The notes under the pieces: model-generated | Database searches by the model: none | Seen by the model: only the letters and a program-made list of their open reading frames with translations | Told to the model about the DNA's origin: nothing | Translations under genes and position numbers: made by a program | Origin: Halobacteria archaeon HArc-gm2 | Lineage (GTDB): Archaea > Halobacteriota > Halobacteria > Halobacteriales > Haloarculaceae | Direction: 5' to 3' | Assembly (NCBI GenBank): GCA_025517465.1 | Contig: JAOPKE010000003.1 | Coordinates: 1-64,000 of the forward strand | Length of the DNA: 64,000 nucleotides | Shown here: positions 2,058 through 39,006 of the stretch, one piece after another | How positions within the stretch are numbered: position 1 is the stretch's first letter | Layout: every line of letters starts with the position of its first letter

Positions 2058-2684
2058 CTACTCGGGCGCTCGGTGAACGTGGATCTCCGCGTCGTCGTTG
2101 ACCCACGCCTGGAGTTTCTCGATCATGTAGGTCCGTGCCTCATTCTCGTCGAAGACGTCCCTGTCGAGCATGTCTCGCGTGATCGATCGCAATGCGCGAA
2201 GCCGACCACGGAGGACGCCGTCGCCGACTGGTTCGCCGTCGTTCCACCGGACCGGGACGAGTGCGCCGTTGCCGACAGTGGTGCCCTCGCTCGTGCGATG
2301 GGCAACGTGATCCATCGCGAAGGAGAACGTCCGGTAGGCCGTGATATCGAACTCTCGGTCGACGACGTAGAACGCTTCGTGCGTGAGGTAGTAGAGACGC
2401 TCCGCACAGATTGTTTCTAGCGTGAGGGCGATTCCTTTCGGTTCCATCTCGACCGGCGTTGCACAGTATCGTCCACTGTCGACTGAGATCGCGGCGCCGT
2501 CGGGCTGGACTTCCAGCATGAGTTCCAGCCGGTTTCGCTGGTCGGAACTCGGGACTGTCCCACCGAACGGTGTTTCGGCTGTGATGTCCGTCGCCAGCCG
2601 AAGTTGGTACGCGCCTTCGTGCGAGTAGTGCAAGTTGTATCGTCCGTCGGGTCGCTCGTACGCGACCAGTGCTCTGTGTGCCAT
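2058..2684 (-). CDS. DUF6735 family protein
   Basis: A 208-residue protein starting MAHRALVAYERPDG and continuing YNLHYSHEGA, the hallmark start of the haloarchaeal DUF6735 family. No active-site motif is evident. DUF6735 genes occur scattered in haloarchaeal genomes and plasmids; their function is unknown. Upstream on this strand lies TTTTATCG followed by a GC-rich dyad (2699-2730), a plausible promoter with an overlapping operator about 40 bp before the ATG. The family call rests on the recognised N-terminus and length. Confidence 0.75.
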   Translation of the reverse strand: MAHRALVAYERPDGRYNLHYSHEGAYQLRLATDITAETPFGGTVPSSDQRNRLELMLEVQPDGAAISVDSGRYCATPVEMEPKGIALTLETICAERLYYLTHEAFYVVDREFDITAYRTFSFAMDHVAHRTSEGTTVGNGALVPVRWNDGEPVGDGVLRGRLRALRSITRDMLDRDVFDENEARTYMIEKLQAWVNDDAEIHVHRAPE

Positions 2685-2698
2685 GATGTGCTGCGGGA

Positions 2699-2730
2699 TT
2701 GCCCCCGCACCCCTCGGGGGGCGATAAAAT
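2699..2730 (-). promoter_or_regulatory. TATA-like box plus GC dyad upstream of the DUF6735 gene
   Basis: On the minus strand, TTTTATCG is followed directly by an inverted repeat, GCCCCCCG and CGGGGGC around AGGGGTG. The same block occurs at 763-796 and in decayed form at 1371-1400. The TATA-like element is about 40 bp from the ATG at 2684, so transcription would start inside or just after the dyad, which could act as an operator. The remaining sequence to 3038 shows no supportable gene. Confidence 0.4.
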
Positions 2731-3038
2731 CACGTGGAGCGGAGCGGTATCATGATGAATCGGCGACCTTAGCACCACGCGAAAAGTACGCCCAGAGTCA
2801 AACTGTCGACCCGGCCGCACAGCTGCAAATGGCTAGTTCTCTACCTCGTCTCCCGATTGGCGAATAGACGATATTTTCGCAGACAATGAAGACTACGTCA
2901 CCGATTCTCTGGATCAATGCTGGTTTCTACAGATGGCGTGGAATGGTAACGACGGTCGCGAAGCCGATATCCGGCATGTCATCCAGGGCTAGCGAGGAAG
3001 GGCCTGGTACAACAGGAAGGTCGTTCTCTCAACACCAC

Positions 3039-4418
3039 TTATTGGGACGCTGGCTCGAACGATACCTCCGCAGTGTGAATCGCAGCGTCGTCGGGCGTTC
3101 CTTCCTTGTTGAGTAACTGGTCGGGGAACGCATCGTAGGCAAGCCCGATCAGCTGGGGTTCGACCTCGGCGAGGAACGCTGGGACGCCGTAGGGGCCCAG
3201 ATCCGCATCGGGATTCCAGGCGCGAACCCAGAGATACGTTGGTTTCCGAAGGCGGCGCGTCCCGGGCTCGAACAGCGCGTCCGCCCAGTGAACTTTTCGC
3301 TCGTCGTCGCCGTGGATCGCCATCGAGAGTTCGCCGACGTGCCAGTAATCACCGTCGCCCCAGCGAGCGAAGCTCCGCGTCGCGTTCCGCTCGTTCGCGA
3401 TCTCGACGAAGTTCGAGCTGAGTTCACGCTTCTTCCCGTACACTTCGGCCTTACCGATGTACCGAGGGACGACGTCGGCAGGGAAGAGGTCGGGACCGTC
3501 GTCGGCGAGCTGGTACATGACGTAGAGGAGCCCCTCATTCTCGGGATGGGGCGTGCCCGTGTCGTCGAGACACTTCAGCCCTTCCCGTCGAATTCGCTCG
3601 TCGATCGCTACCGAGCGCTTCAGTCGACCATTGTCGGTCAGGGAGACAGTGCTCTGCTCGTCGACGTCGAAGAGTGGGATCGGGTCGGCAGTACCGCCAG
3701 CACGGATATCCTCCAGAATGTACTCGTCAGCCCAGGCCTGCCACTGTTCGGTCTTCGAGCGGTTGGTCTGGAGTGTCGTGGACGTGATCGATTCGGTCTC
3801 TCCAGTGGAGACAGCCTCAGCTTCGGGATCGGTGACCCACTCGGACCCAGCCTTCCCGATAGCGTGGAGGATCTGGTTCGGGACGAACTCCCGGTTGGCG
3901 AACACTCGCTCGTACCGGTCCTGCCCGTGAACGAGCCCGACGAGTTTCGCTTCGAGTTCCTGGCGATAGGTCTCGTGGCCGTAGGGCCCGGCAGCGAGTT
4001 CGTCGACGTCACAGATCCAGACGTACAGTGATTGGGACGTGGCCTCACGGATAGCCGCGATGTGGTCGTACTTCGAGAAACTGCCCCACTCGCCGTCGTC
4101 TTCCCACTCCGTGACCGGGAGTGCGTCCCTGATCTTCCGAGAGTGCTGCCCGATACGGGAGCTAATATCGGCCGACTCACCGACGTAGACCGGGGTGATG
4201 TCGTGAGCGTTCTCGACTGGCTCGTCCAGCAGGTAGACGAGGTAGAGGTACTCTCCCTGGTTCAGCCCCCACTTGTACTTGCCGAGGGCGTTGCTGGTGG
4301 TTAATCCACTGGCGTCCTCGTCGAAGAACGGGACTGGGTCCGGAGTGTCCTGGGCGTGGATGTCCGAGACGAGTGTCTCTTCTATCCACTGGCCCCACAG
4401 CTCCGCTTTCGTCGACAT
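3039..4418 (-). CDS. tandem GIY-YIG-like nuclease domain protein
   Basis: A 459-residue protein with two related halves. Each half opens with a W-x-W/WIEE...DIRA-type helix and a DPxPxFD segment, then a GIY-YIG-like core. In half one, LVYLL (60-64) leads to VYVGES (77-82), with R88 and H92 after it. In half two, LLYVMY (about 294-299) leads to RYIGKA (about 318-323), followed by a KKRELSSN helix. GIY-YIG domains cut one DNA strand and occur in homing, repair and restriction enzymes. A TATA-like ATTAAAAG about 30 bp upstream supports the start. It borders a defence island, so a restriction role is inferred, not shown. Confidence 0.6.
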   Translation of the reverse strand: MSTKAELWGQWIEETLVSDIHAQDTPDPVPFFDEDASGLTTSNALGKYKWGLNQGEYLYLVYLLDEPVENAHDITPVYVGESADISSRIGQHSRKIRDALPVTEWEDDGEWGSFSKYDHIAAIREATSQSLYVWICDVDELAAGPYGHETYRQELEAKLVGLVHGQDRYERVFANREFVPNQILHAIGKAGSEWVTDPEAEAVSTGETESITSTTLQTNRSKTEQWQAWADEYILEDIRAGGTADPIPLFDVDEQSTVSLTDNGRLKRSVAIDERIRREGLKCLDDTGTPHPENEGLLYVMYQLADDGPDLFPADVVPRYIGKAEVYGKKRELSSNFVEIANERNATRSFARWGDGDYWHVGELSMAIHGDDERKVHWADALFEPGTRRLRKPTYLWVRAWNPDADLGPYGVPAFLAEVEPQLIGLAYDAFPDQLLNKEGTPDDAAIHTAEVSFEPASQ

Positions 4419-32491: not shown

Positions 32492-33352
32492 CTATTCCCA
32501 CCACGGACCGTGTTCGGGGAACCTGACCATCGACCACCCGGTGAGCGCGATTGAACACCGGCCCTCGTACCAGTTCTTGCTGGCATTGATGAACGTGACC
32601 GTGTCTCCCTCCCGAACTTTCGGCAGGTTCGACTTCTCCCAGACCGTGAACTTGATCCGACCACTGTCGTCCGCGATCAGCCCGACTTGTGCGATACTCG
32701 AATCTGAGGGTTCCCACAGCGTCTCGATGGTCCCCTCGACACTCACCCCAGGTCGATCGGCCCATTCAACTTGGTTAATCGGAATGACGTATCCAGACTG
32801 GTCACGAATGAATTCGATAACGTCGACGACTGCGTCGAGGACGTCCATCCCGTCTGCGATCCGCCGGGCTAGATGCCGCGATATCGCCGCCCGGGTCATT
32901 CCCCGTGTCTGCGCTTTCACTCGCTTTGCCTGCTTGTTCACCGTCGCCAGTTCTGCCTGCGTGAGCATCTCCCTGGGATCCTCCCGGTCCGGGCCATCCC
33001 ACTCGTCCGTCTCCAAACCACGCCGTTCGAACTCCCGCGTTCGCTCGTGACTGACGTCCCAGACCGTGTCTCGTGACCGTGCTTCCCGGTCCGACTCCTG
33101 CCGGTTCCCCCACCGCCCGTGCGTTCGCTCTATCTCCCACTCGTGTGCCGCCAGTTTCTCTTCCGCCTCAAGCGTCAATCCCGTCCGGCCACTGTCCGGG
33201 TGATTCGTGTCGACCTTGCCCTGTATCTCCTGTTCGACCGACCGCCGCAGTTCCGGTTCCTGGCCAGCCGCCCGCTCGTGTCGCTGTTCGACTGTCTGTT
33301 CGTCGACCGATCCTTCATTACGAATGACGTTGTTACTGTTCATTGGAATCAC
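32492..33352 (-). CDS. OB-fold single-stranded-DNA-binding (RPA-like) protein
   Basis: A 286-residue acidic protein (ATG 33352; alternative ATG 33343). The N-terminal 110 residues are highly charged and probably disordered. About 125-185 is helical. About 190-275 is an OB fold: INQVEWADRPGVSVEGTIE, VGLIADDSGRIKFTVWEKS, VREGDTVTFINA, RCSIALTGWS, the pattern of haloarchaeal RPA-like ssDNA-binding proteins. Such proteins protect single-stranded DNA in replication and repair and are frequent on haloarchaeal plasmids and integrated elements. It diverges from the structured GC-rich tract to its right. Confidence 0.7.
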   Translation of the reverse strand: MIPMNSNNVIRNEGSVDEQTVEQRHERAAGQEPELRRSVEQEIQGKVDTNHPDSGRTGLTLEAEEKLAAHEWEIERTHGRWGNRQESDREARSRDTVWDVSHERTREFERRGLETDEWDGPDREDPREMLTQAELATVNKQAKRVKAQTRGMTRAAISRHLARRIADGMDVLDAVVDVIEFIRDQSGYVIPINQVEWADRPGVSVEGTIETLWEPSDSSIAQVGLIADDSGRIKFTVWEKSNLPKVREGDTVTFINASKNWYEGRCSIALTGWSMVRFPEHGPWWE

Positions 33353-33484
33353 TTGATGGGTGATTTTCCACGAAGGCGCTCACTCCGCGTCTTCACTTTC
33401 CAACGACCCGCCAGCCGTCGCTCTCCGCGACGACCATCGCTCGCACCTTCTACGAGACACGACCAGACACCCGAGAACGCCGTC

Positions 33485-34380
33485 ACCCGAGGCGTCCGCG
33501 CCGCGCCCGCAAGCCGGACTCCGTCCGGCGCGGCGCGACGCCGACGGCCTCCCCCACAGACGAGTGCGGGGTGGAAGCTCGAGGTGAGCGCGCACCCAGG
33601 GCCGTAAACCCACCGCGTCTCCGCGGGTCTTCGCCGCCGCCGTCCGGCAAACGAGCACCGACGGAGTCGGCGCGCAGTGCCGGCGCAACGGACGCGGCGA
33701 AGAGACGGCACGGCCGGGGGGTTTACGGTCCTGGACGGCCGCGGACAAGGCCGCAGCGAGGGACGGCGTGGCGCGCGAACGGCCAGGAACGGCGAGCGAC
33801 GGCGAGGAGTCCGTGTGAGCGAACTCGTTCGCGAACGCGGACGCTCGGCGGCGCGAGTCCGCACGCCCGGCAGCGGGCGACACGCCGACCGAGTTTGAGC
33901 GGACGCCCGGCAGGCAGCGCAGCCGTCCCCGAGCGCCGACGACCGACAGTCCCGGTCACCCCGGTCCCGGGTCGCCAGACCCGGTTTCGGGGCGCGGGGC
34001 TGTCGGGCGAGAAGCGAGCGGTGAGGGCTCGCCCGAACGGCGAGCAGCCCGACCCGGACCGCGAAAGAGGCCGCGTCTGAACCCCCTGTCCGTCGGCGCG
34101 GGCGGTGTGGAGAGCGCCGACGCAACGCGGGGTGAAGATGCAGCCGGCCCGGTCACGGTCGAATCCCGGTCGCGGGCCGAGTGCTCGCAGGCCCGCTCTC
34201 GGGTGAGTCCGGTATCGGGCGGCTGCACTCGGCCCGACCCGGCCCCGCGACCGTGTCCCGTCCGTCGCCGCCGCGGGTTGGCGGCGTCGCAACGGAACGC
34301 GCGAAAGCCCGGGCCCGGCAGGACCGTAATGCAGGCCGGGGCGCGCGCAACCCGAGGAGTCCACCCCGCACGTACGGCCA
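33485..34380 (+). ncRNA. candidate large structured non-coding RNA
   Basis: About 0.9 kb of very GC-rich DNA where frames on both strands stay open only because stops are rare, yielding arginine/proline-rich nonsense. It is packed with strong nested helices. (1) 33497-33504/33530-33537 stacks on 33513-33519/33523-33529, closed by 33491-33495/33538-33542. (2) 33596-33611/33719-33734 is 16 bp with one G-U, enclosing 33628-33637/33694-33703 and a CCGAC-GGA-GTCGG hairpin. (3) 34154-34161/34248-34255 encloses a 12-bp perfect helix 34173-34184/34225-34236. Further stems include CCGGGTC-GCCA-GACCCGG near 33967 and TCGGGCGAG/CTCGCCCGA near 34003-34038. The G-U pair in helix 2 would be C-A on the other strand, which favours plus-strand transcription. 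No known RNA family was recognised; ends are approximate. Confidence 0.5.
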
Positions 34381-34525
34381 AGTGACACTGGATTTCCGGG
34401 AGAGTCGGCCATCAGGAAGGGAAGGTAGCTGAGACGATTTGGCTACGATAGCGAATCGAACACCGCACTCCCACAGTCGAGAAAGCGGTCTATCTACTAT
34501 CCAGCCAAAGGAGACCTAACCACCA

Positions 34526-34634
34526 GGGCGGGACTGAAAGGGGCCGCGGGTTCGACCGGTCCCCGGACCCACAAGCACCGCAGGTACGAGGAGCGCAGTG
34601 CGGTCCGCGGACCGTCGAACCCGGGGGGGCTTTC
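34526..34634 (+). repeat. structured repeat element, copy 1 (full length)
   Basis: It begins GGGCGGGACTGAAAGGGGC and ends GGGGGGCTTTC. Between the ends a perfect 10-bp helix CGGGTTCGAC (34547-34556) / GTCGAACCCG (34614-34623) encloses an inner ACCGCA...TGCGGT hairpin with a GAGGAGCGCAG loop side. Copies 4 and 5 keep the ends and the helix but with different helix sequences. Such covariation indicates selection on a folded RNA or DNA. It lies upstream of the aRF1 paralogue. Confidence 0.7.
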
Positions 34635-34997
34635 GGGGAATGAATCGTTCAAGTGGAGTGGCTTTCTCCAAGCCCAGTAACCGATTTAGAATTCTCCTGT
34701 AGGTACCTTCTAGCAACGAAGAGATAGAGCAACCAGACGCGACACCTGTTGGACGCAGTGTGAAAGTCGAAACCGATGACATCCCTCTCTAGGTGGTGAC
34801 TGCTTCGACTACGCCTCCCACACTGGCACAACCATTATTCCCAGCTACCACGTACACCGACCATGCACCACACACCGCCGGTGCGACAGGTGACTGCGCG
34901 CACGACCAGCGCTTGCCTCGTTCTCTCGTAGCTCGTAACAGCGCCGGCGGGTGTATCGCCTTCTCATCGAGTAGCAGCGCCGCTGTCACCGACCCAC

Positions 34998-36074
34998 ATG
35001 CAGACCACCGAGTACCAACTCCGCGACCGAATCGACCAGCTCGCAGACTACCGCGGCGAGGGGACCGAACTCGTCACCGTCGCCGTTCCGCCAGACAAGT
35101 CACTTCAAACCATCCGCGAACGCATCGACCGCGAGCAAGCACAGGCCGAGAACATCAAATCCGACCGGACACGAACCAACGTTCAGGACGCCCTCGGGCG
35201 TATCCGTCGCCACCTCCAGGCGTACGAGGAGACGCCACCGAACGGCCTCGTCGTCTACGCGGGGGTCGTCGACGGCGAACTACGCGACGACGTCTTCGAC
35301 GACCTCGACCGACCAGTCGACGTCTCGATCTACCGCTGTGCGGCCGAGTTCGAGACCGCACCCGTCGAACAGGCGCTCACCCCGTCGACGGCGTACGGTC
35401 TGGTCGTCCTCGAACGAGGTCGCGCCGCCCTCGGGCGACTCGCCGGCGAGCGAATCGTCGACACTCGAACGATCGAGAGTCAGGTAATGGGCAAGTCCCG
35501 CGCGGGCGGCCAGAGCGCCCAGCGGTTCGAACGCGAACGCGACCGCCAGAAACACGAGTTCTTCACGCAGGTCGCCGACGCCGTCGAAGGGACGTTCCTC
35601 AGTGAGCCCACCGTCGATGGCCTCGTCCTCGGTGGCACGACGATCACCGTCGACGAGTTCCAGCAGGGCGACTACCTCCACCACGAGTTGCGGGACCGCG
35701 TCCTGGGCGTCTATCCGGTCGAGTACGCGACCGAGCAGGGCCTTGCACAGCTCGTCGAGCGTGCCGAGGACGTGCTGTCCGATGCTCAACGACGACGGGA
35801 ACGGGCGGCGCTAGACCGGTTCTTCACGGCACTCGGACGGGATGGCGACGTCGCCTACGGGACTGATGCAACGCGAACCGCCATCGAGTACGGCGCAGTC
35901 GACGTCCTCCTCGTCGCTGACACACTCCCACCAGAGCAAGTCCGCGACCTAGAGACAGCAACGACCGACCAGGGGGGTGAGTGTCTCATCGTGTCGACCG
36001 ACACGGATCGCGGTGCGCAGTTCGAGACCGCACTCGGGGGTCTCGGGGCGTTCCTCCGGTTTCCGATCGAGTAA
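34998..36074 (+). CDS. aRF1/eRF1 family peptide chain release factor paralogue
   Basis: A 358-residue protein with the three functional motifs of class I archaeal release factors: NIKS (52-55), YRCAAEF (112-118, YxCxxxF) for stop-codon reading, and GGQ (170-172, in SRAGGQSAQRF) for peptidyl-tRNA hydrolysis. It is shorter than the roughly 415-residue housekeeping aRF1, mostly through compact N and C domains. It lies in accessory DNA between two copies of the structured repeat. It may be a second, conditionally used release factor or a ribosome-rescue factor of the wider eRF1-like group. Motif completeness argues against decay. Whether it replaces or modifies normal termination cannot be read here. 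Confidence 0.85.
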   Translation: MQTTEYQLRDRIDQLADYRGEGTELVTVAVPPDKSLQTIRERIDREQAQAENIKSDRTRTNVQDALGRIRRHLQAYEETPPNGLVVYAGVVDGELRDDVFDDLDRPVDVSIYRCAAEFETAPVEQALTPSTAYGLVVLERGRAALGRLAGERIVDTRTIESQVMGKSRAGGQSAQRFERERDRQKHEFFTQVADAVEGTFLSEPTVDGLVLGGTTITVDEFQQGDYLHHELRDRVLGVYPVEYATEQGLAQLVERAEDVLSDAQRRRERAALDRFFTALGRDGDVAYGTDATRTAIEYGAVDVLLVADTLPPEQVRDLETATTDQGGECLIVSTDTDRGAQFETALGGLGAFLRFPIE

Positions 36075-36144
36075 GCCGAGTAGAACATATCCGTTGGTAC
36101 AGCTGATGGACTTCTCCATCCTACCGCCGACCGACAAACCGCCC

Positions 36145-36195
36145 GGGCGGGATTGAAAGGGGCCGCGGGTTCGACCGGTCCCCGGGCCCACAAGC
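36145..36195 (+). repeat. structured repeat element, copy 2 (5' part only)
   Basis: It starts GGGCGGGATTGAAAGGGGC and is nearly identical to copy 1 through the GTTCGACCGGTCCCCGG and CCCACAAGC blocks, then diverges abruptly; no GGGGGCTTTC end follows. Copies 1 and 2 are therefore direct repeats of about 50 bp flanking the aRF1 paralogue. The rest of 36075-36420 shows no gene. Confidence 0.65.
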
Positions 36196-36420
36196 CCTCG
36201 CAGCCTGAGCTGGCGTTGTATGGTCGAAGACTGCCGTCGCAGGCACGTCCGCGTCGATGGGCCAACACAAGAATTCGTTGCGCTTCGGCTCCGATTCGCC
36301 GTTGCAAGTGCCAGCTAGGCGCGAGGAGACGACTGAAGTGCGAGAGAGACGAGCCACGAGGGGGAAGATACATTCACTTTCGCCAATAGATTTAATATTC
36401 CACATGAAAACGTTTCAATC

Positions 36421-37843: not shown

Positions 37844-37933
37844 ACAAAGGTCGGGTCCAAGACGCGCTTCGCTACCCACTACCACAAACTCACGCCGCTC
37901 GCCGATCACCTCGACCGCGTCGAACAGGACTGA
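37844..37933 (+). pseudogene. MutS fragment (relic)
   Basis: In the frame starting at 37844 the sequence reads TKVGSKTRFATHYHKLTPLA then DHLDRVEQD and TGA. This matches the segment of MutS just after its Walker B region (GA+TLFATHYHEL..LAD.L..V). Upstream of 37844 the similarity is lost, and the relic ends exactly where copy 3 of the structured repeat begins. It is a fragment of about 29 codons left by deletion or insertion. The rest of 37120-37992 contains no supportable gene. Confidence 0.6.
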
Positions 37934-37953
37934 AAGGGGCCGCGGGGGCTTTC
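37927..37953 (+). repeat. structured repeat element, copy 3 (collapsed)
   Basis: Only the ends of the element are present: GGACTGAAAGGGGCCGCGGG runs straight into GGGGCTTTC, with the whole internal helix and loop missing. It directly overlaps the stop of the MutS relic. This could be a deletion product between the short G-rich ends, or an empty form of the element. Confidence 0.6.
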
Positions 37954-37992: not shown

Positions 37993-39006
37993 CTACTCGG
38001 AATCGGTATTTCCGACGGAACGGGTCGAGTACCCCCGAAAATCCGTGTCGACCCACTGCTCCCAGAACTCGTCCGCATCCTCGTAGTCGACTGATTTCCA
38101 GACCGCGGCAGTAAACCGGTCGTCACCCTTCGGCTTGCCGCCACCATGGGCGAAGTAGTGACAGTCGCTGCAGAGAGTTGCGAGATTTTCGAGCTCATTC
38201 GTGCCACCGCCACTGCGAGGAATGATATGGTGAACGACAAGGTCGGTCGAATCTCCACAGGAGACGCAACTTTGGTCATCACGTTCTAACACTCGATCTC
38301 GGGACTTCCCCTTGAGCCGACGTTGGGCGATTCCTTCGCCGGGAATATGCTTAAACTTCTCTGCGTATGACCGGGAGCTATCAGCGGCTTTCGCAGTGAG
38401 GCCATTATTCGCCCGAAGATACGGAAATGCGGTCTTGAGCTCTATGATCTTGTGTTTCTTCTTCTCGAACGGAATCTCTCGTTCCGCGAGGTGGGTTCGG
38501 TAGATTCGGATCAACTGTGATTCCACGCGTCGGAGCCGGTGAGTGAGCTCAATCCACTTTGTATCGAAACGCCGCATTTCGTACCGTACCTGCCGGCATT
38601 TCCGGCGAAACTCTTCGTGAACCTCCGGATTTCTCATCAAAGAGATTCCATCGATCTGGTCGAGAGCGTGTTCTTCCAGTGGATCCGTCCACTGATCCTC
38701 CCGATTAGAGCGGTCCTCTAAGACGTGTTCCCTTTCCCGAACGAAATCCAGATATTCGTCAGGTGCGTTGGCTCCCAGTACTCGTTCGACTTCTTCGAGA
38801 TCGCCGATGTGACGATTCCACGCTGCAGCCGTGTTTAGAGGAACGTCAAATTCGTCTGCGATCTCCTGTAGAGCCTCTGGATAGAGTGGGTCTACATCGG
38901 TCATATCTGAGAAGTCTGTGTTGTACTCCTGGAATACGAGTTGCTCAGTAAAAGGCTGGGGGAATTTTGAGGCTTCATCACGATCTCGTTCCCGACCTCG
39001 TGACAC
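37993..39006 (-). CDS. HNH endonuclease domain protein
   Basis: A 337-residue protein. The C-terminal domain reads RDRVLERDDQSCVSCGD, LVVHHIIPRSGGGTNELEN and LCSDCHYFAH (about 235-285), a complete HNH nuclease with two CxxC zinc pairs, the catalytic HH and the asparagine. The N-terminal two thirds includes an HTH-like QEIADEFDVPLNTAAAWNRHI (about 47-67) and long helices, suggesting site recognition. It stands alone, divergent from the AGOG gene about 60 bp away. A restriction or mobile-element role is likely. The catalytic residues are intact. Confidence 0.8.
   Translation of the reverse strand: MSRGRERDRDEASKFPQPFTEQLVFQEYNTDFSDMTDVDPLYPEALQEIADEFDVPLNTAAAWNRHIGDLEEVERVLGANAPDEYLDFVREREHVLEDRSNREDQWTDPLEEHALDQIDGISLMRNPEVHEEFRRKCRQVRYEMRRFDTKWIELTHRLRRVESQLIRIYRTHLAEREIPFEKKKHKIIELKTAFPYLRANNGLTAKAADSSRSYAEKFKHIPGEGIAQRRLKGKSRDRVLERDDQSCVSCGDSTDLVVHHIIPRSGGGTNELENLATLCSDCHYFAHGGGKPKGDDRFTAAVWKSVDYEDADEFWEQWVDTDFRGYSTRSVGNTDSE

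Follow-up and report, generated by a model that had tools for sequence, protein, structure and literature searches.

We suggest, with a probability of roughly 0.6, that haloarchaea possess a so far unrecognised superfamily of large RNAs with elaborate structure, each encoded divergently from a gene of one single family of OB-fold proteins. The bodies of these RNAs appear unrelated to one another (giant A, giant B, and short), carry a common leader and a CGCAAC module, and replace one another next to the same gene. If this is correct, no giant ornate RNA had been known from archaea before, and the ribonucleoprotein would be of a new, modular kind. The RNA described here lies in a window of 64,000 nucleotides, that is, the whole stretch of DNA that was analysed (positions 1–64,000 of contig JAOPKE010000003.1 of Halobacteria archaeon HArc-gm2, forward strand), and positions refer to this window unless another contig is named. 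The best reading is a new giant structured RNA that represents one form of a module consisting of an RNA and an OB-fold protein.

The original prediction had placed a giant structured RNA of roughly 0.9 kb at positions 33485–34380, and this reading has held up: the element displays compensatory change, does not code for a protein, is not matched by any Rfam family and is represented by homologues in three families of haloarchaea. Its bounds had to be widened, as the conserved unit extends from about position 33344, at the start codon of the OB-fold gene, to about position 34376; the extension to the left adds two small hairpins which had not been predicted. The G+C content is 76% at the element and about 55–65% in the surroundings. 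The tract 33485–34380 folds with −549 kcal/mol versus −499 ± 10 kcal/mol in dinucleotide shuffles (z = −4.9), and equal energies of real and shuffled sequences, which would have refuted the prediction, are thus not observed; the reverse complement reaches z = −6.1. The absence of a coding frame is likewise confirmed by five pairs of relatives, in which 76 of 81 indels are not multiples of three and the substitutions are spread evenly over the three codon phases, ruling out a protein-coding function on either strand. The comparison with Rfam that had been proposed alongside the prediction was carried out and matched no known RNA family, neither in the window at gathering thresholds nor in the region 33300–36300 at E values up to 5. 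No tRNA or tmRNA was found in the window, and a literature search that lacked most subscription journals yielded no description of a haloarchaeal RNA of such kind.

The evidence for a conserved structure comes from an alignment of 22 sequences, for which RNAalifold gave a consensus of 299 pairs. Standard pairs occupy 93.5% of the cells, compared with 35–41% when the partners are slid, and two-sided changes are seen at 68 pairs as opposed to 42 in shuffles and 14–32 upon sliding. Along the tree we count 52 double compensatory changes versus 4.5 ± 1.9 in a control in which partners were exchanged at random between pairs of identical consensus letters (200 trials, maximum 9); a lack of compensatory changes among homologues, named beforehand as a possible refutation, can therefore be dismissed. 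As the consensus structure was derived from the very alignment used for counting the events, an unbiased scan of all column pairs was also run (stacks of at least 4, with at least two compensatory events). Its four best helices (33596/33734, 33491/33542, 34172/34196, and 33568/34367) correspond to the three structures of the original prediction and to a closing helix. When pairs were tested singly in an R-scape-like manner (APC G-test against a tree-based null), none was significant; this test has little power here because the effective number of sequences is only about ten, and it was replaced by the count of compensatory branch events with matched control. Compensated secondary structure over several hundred nucleotides, the criterion for a giant structured RNA, is present, and there is hardly any doubt that some sort of structured element has been conserved here.

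Read on the plus strand, the element begins with a leader of two hairpins (33340–33400, fold z = −3.6). Hairpin 0 (33345–33369, pairing 33345–33352 with 33360–33369) adjoins the start codon of the OB-fold gene and has a mean stem of 5.5 bp versus 3.7 ± 0.13 bp when its halves are swapped between 63 loci. Hairpin A (33375–33391, GGCGC...GCGUC) contains the GAAGGCGC motif, which is common to the giant and the short types, and also folds. There follows, outside the closing helix, a stacked hairpin (33479–33548; 97% of cells paired, 9 double compensatory events), which had been predicted at 33491–33542, appears in the alignment model as 33491–33507/33527–33542 and ranks second in the unbiased scan. 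The body itself is held by the closing helix P1, absent from the prediction, in which 33560–33593 form 26 pairs with 34341–34373 (98–100% of cells paired, 5 double compensatory events). Inside P1 lies a domain at 33596–33734 with 9 double compensatory events. Here the predicted long-range helix with its enclosed helix and small hairpin was recovered in place; the model comprises the long-range helix 33596–33623/33706–33734, an inner helix 33628–33638/33693–33703 and a hairpin 33640–33648/33682–33691, and the long-range helix is the best of the unbiased scan, with 5 compensated and 0 broken. A second long-range helix pairs 33736–33745 with 34330–34338 (98% of cells paired), one of its pairs being C-G 11 times and G-C 10 times.

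The middle domain (33749–34072) is variable, and both pairing and alignment quality are lower here. It is followed by a conserved stem (34075–34139, helices 29–30, 94–97% of cells paired) and by a three-layer domain (34140–34226) with 6 double compensatory events; the latter had been predicted at 34154–34255, is modelled as 34140–34182/34187–34226, covaries and holds the third best helix of the scan, 34172/34196. The most conserved part is the 3′ domain (34229–34327, 98–100% of cells paired), which carries the module CCGUC.CGUC...ACGCAACGG and the string GCGAAAGCCCGGGCCCGGCAGGA; its motif is common to a divergent giant type described below. Copies of the CGCAACG module are located at 33683–33691, at 34119–34127 within the conserved stem, and at 34286–34295. 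In the model the module hairpins have the form CCGU-C-CGUC/GACG-CA-ACGG with a 1 × 2 internal loop.

Full-length relatives with 70–75% identity to the window are found in haloarchaea of three families, among them the whole element at 73–74% identity in two genomes of another genus of the same family. A search of 391 genomes of the class with the copy from one of these two gave matches in about 20, mostly over the full length, whereas two family-wide searches added one further carrier only, which is fragmentary. Carriers include Haloferax denitrificans, H. gibbonsii, H. prahovense, H. marisrubri, H. massiliensis and Haloferax sp. Q22 as well as Halorubrum californiense, Halorubrum saccharovorum, Halolamina pelagica, Halopenitus persicus and Haloarchaeobius sp. 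FL176; plasmid copies are present in Halolamina sp. CBA1230, Haloferax alexandrinus and H. lucentense, and some genomes have two or three copies. A naturally compact copy (L063) measures 558 nt in the aligned stretch and lacks most of the middle domain (gap from position 33761 to about 34090). In one H. marisrubri locus (L094, G201, contig C18, near 318500–318740) the giant RNA is heavily deleted, with about 170 nt of its 5′ end and 100 nt of its 3′ end retained beside an intact-looking OB-fold gene. At another locus (L003 of genome G087, 2550–3617) a tyrosine recombinase gene follows directly after the RNA, which fits a mobile setting. A virus-borne giant type was considered and discarded, as neither phage records nor viral contigs gave a match. 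Most of the weak BLAST matches of the first genome search (E values of 1e-6 to 1e-3) were short, GC-rich and not considered further; it was through one of these weak matches that the divergent giant type came to light.

Every copy of the giant element adjoins a divergent gene for an OB-fold protein of about 300 amino acids. In the window this gene (32492–33343, minus strand, 283 amino acids) encodes an RPA/SSB-like protein with a C-terminal OB domain and about 190 N-terminal residues unlike known families. Residues 173–271 match the NCBIfam replication factor A model PRK07217 with 66 bits, which does not reach the curated cut-off of 353, and the protein also matches PDB entry 2kbn (E = 7e-9); its structure was predicted with low confidence only (mean pLDDT of 51). 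The element had been described as lying between a gene for a single-stranded DNA-binding protein and an aRF1 paralogue; the former neighbour is constant, but the latter is not conserved. No third conserved protein gene near the module was convincing. The OB-fold family is widespread in haloarchaea: none of the best 150 matches listed for the class has an E value above 1.1e-129, some genomes contain up to about 11 matches (in this per-genome count, more distant RPA relatives are included in the best match of nearly every genome), and the family is present in 152 plasmid records, including those of pNRC100 and pNRC200 of Halobacterium salinarum. Phage records and viral contigs contained no match to the protein.

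Most of 60 further OB-fold loci have another GC-rich tract, of about 400–550 nt, in the slot of the giant RNA. When 30 other OB-fold loci were tested, the upstream sequence had a fold z below −3 in 26 cases (median −5.4), in comparison to a median of +1.8 for the OB-fold coding sequences. This short type and the giant type have the leader in common, namely hairpin 0 followed by the GAAGGCGC hairpin. A third type, a much diverged giant tract beside a diverged OB-fold gene, is found on contig C15 of the genome that contains the window (locus L098, 400–1760) and in a close relative (L099); it aligns to the RNA of the window over about 70 nt only, folds with z = −8.6 and shares the motif of the 3′ domain. 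Fragments of this tract are also seen in two further genomes (G048 and G101). As a second OB-fold locus of the same genome (L127, contig C2) is of the short type, this genome contains three modules with three RNA types. On pNRC100 and pNRC200 of H. salinarum NRC-1 (L160 and L161) the short structured type is located upstream of the OB-fold genes, in about 700 bp without listed genes directly upstream of VNG_RS12910 and VNG_RS11940.

In nine giant RNAs CGCAACG occurs 29 times, where 2.1 occurrences are expected, and ACGCAACGG 22 times (0.1 expected); CGCAAC is present in 51 of 57 short-type RNAs (53 occurrences, 20 expected). The hairpin module is found in several copies in the giant types (up to 4 in relatives of the window's RNA) and mostly once in the short type. 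We infer from this, in the absence of binding data, that this module is the strongest candidate for a protein-binding site common to the types. The distribution of the giant type on a tree of 80 OB-fold proteins requires 10 changes, and well-supported branches force at least 9 of them; moreover, two OB-fold proteins that are 93% identical stand beside a giant (L044) and a short RNA (L101), respectively. Therefore, RNA bodies have been swapped beside the gene, or lost and regained.

Which strand is transcribed can only be inferred. The original prediction relied on one G-U pair, which is far too thin a basis; a count of events nevertheless leans to the plus strand as well. In well-supported symmetric helices predicted on both strands, with support judged by a strand-neutral criterion, we find 24 G-U versus 10 A-C events (p = 0.024), and 10 versus 0 in the two symmetric parts of the closing helix. 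The short type alone gives 25 versus 20 events, and both types pooled 49 versus 30 (p = 0.04). Unpaired positions on the plus strand are 35% A and 10% U. Thus, wobble pairs and A-rich loops moderately favour the plus strand without settling the question, and the minus strand also folds well. A putative BRE/TATA-like promoter of the RNA is located at 33307–33321 (plus strand) inside the N-terminal codons of the OB-fold gene; its consensus, ACCGAAAC and TTCATTAC, lies about 26 nt before the first hairpin and is conserved position by position at a fixed distance from the start codon in 70 loci. However, conservation of the protein motif VSVDEQ could also account for this block, and there is no clear haloarchaeal TATA box.

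These uncertainties leave some room for the possibility that the element is a very long 5′ leader of the OB-fold mRNA on the minus strand, by which the OB-fold protein or a ligand controls expression of the gene. The structure ends within about 30 nt of the OB-fold start with hairpin 0 directly before the ATG, no promoter of the OB-fold gene can be made out between the ATG and the hairpins, and the minus strand folds as well as the plus strand. We nevertheless regard such a leader as unlikely, as the G-U bias in well-supported helices and the A-rich loops point to the plus strand and no conserved promoter-like sequence follows past the right end. A further explanation, folded single-stranded DNA such as a single-strand or transfer origin recognised by the RPA-like protein, is quite unlikely: covariation alone cannot separate RNA from DNA, the neighbour is of the single-stranded DNA-binding type and many copies are on plasmids, but the G-U versus A-C asymmetry and the composition of the loops speak for RNA. 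Moreover, known origins are far less ornate, the slot can be filled by any of several unrelated structured types, and neither a relaxase nor a Rep gene is conserved nearby. An antitoxin/toxin-like or defence pair with specificity set by the RNA type would fit a two-part module with patchy distribution, several copies per genome and exchanged RNA types, but is very unlikely given that neither a toxin or nuclease domain in the OB-fold protein nor a conserved third gene was found.

Thus, we consider it probable, though far from certain, that the element is a structured RNA of the plus strand that works with the OB-fold protein; transcription and binding of the partner are inferences, and support for the strand is moderate. 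According to this proposal, a large non-coding RNA would be read divergently from the OB-fold gene, starting from a weak promoter inside its first codons, and would fold into a short 5′ hairpin leader and a multi-domain body held by P1. The protein of the adjacent gene would be the likely partner, the repeated CGCAAC(G) hairpins its likely binding sites, and both may act as a ribonucleoprotein. The module moves on plasmids and chromosomes, and its RNA body switches between giant and short types while gene and leader stay. That the RNA serves as a scaffold for maintenance or expression of the host replicon, the RNA type giving specificity, is a guess and remains doubtful. As the short type is present in H. 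salinarum NRC-1 and the giant type in cultured Haloferax, existence, partner and function of the RNA are directly testable.

Downstream of the element, the aRF1/eRF1 paralogue (34998–36071; TIGR03676, 314.6 bits, cut-off 234.7) resembles a second copy and lies in accessory-looking DNA between two copies of a GC-rich repeat of about 110 nt (GGGCGGGACTGAAAGGGGCCG ... GCACCGCAGG.ACGAGGAGCGCAG ... GGGGGCTTTCGGGG), which is found at 34518–34640, 36137–36200 and 37927–37946 and also after the short RNA at four other OB-fold loci (L105, L115, L122 and L127). Its first copy folds with z = −3.9 and the repeat has no match in Rfam; it may be a small structured RNA in its own right or else a miniature mobile element. 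Further downstream an HNH endonuclease is encoded (37996–39006), whose HNH part is IscB-like (51 bits, below the cut-off of 175).

The giant ornate RNAs GOLLD, ROOL and OLE are known from bacteria and bacteriophages, and what they do is poorly understood; GOLLD, from bacteria and phages, often lies near tRNAs, and OLE is a bacterial RNA of about 600 nt. None of the three models matched the window at gathering thresholds or the region 33300–36300 at E values up to 5. GOLLD is often over 800 nt long and ornate, has a conserved 3′ region and a less conserved 5′ part, and resides in mobile DNA with unknown function (PMC12286853). The haloarchaeal element is likewise very large, ornate and in a mobile setting with the 3′ domain as its most conserved part, but differs in its hosts, its fixed OB-fold neighbour and the exchange of RNA types; moreover, the setting of GOLLD is not met, as the window has no tRNA and phage records and viral contigs have no match to the giant type. 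ROOL, a large ornate RNA found on a megaplasmid of Lactobacillus salivarius (PMC5643018; PMC12286853), has no known protein partner (PMC12286853). It resembles our element in size, ornateness and mobile setting, whereas the haloarchaeal element is always accompanied by an adjacent protein gene and has no sequence match to ROOL. Hence the element resembles GOLLD and ROOL in kind and is a member of neither. OLE is a large ornate RNA found in extremophiles, where it acts together with encoded protein partners (PMC9723947); the hosts of our element are extremophiles as well, but its neighbour is an OB-fold protein. This neighbour is similar to the haloarchaeal RPA of PRK07217 in its C-terminal OB domain and differs by its long unrelated N-terminal part and the adjacent structured RNA. 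Because no known family or partner arrangement matched, we call the element new in category; taken loosely as a giant ornate RNA, it would belong to a known kind and form a new archaeal class within it. If our reading is true, archaeal giant RNAs with a genetically linked protein join GOLLD, ROOL and OLE, and nature would supply both a compact variant and a series in which RNA bodies are exchanged next to near-identical proteins.
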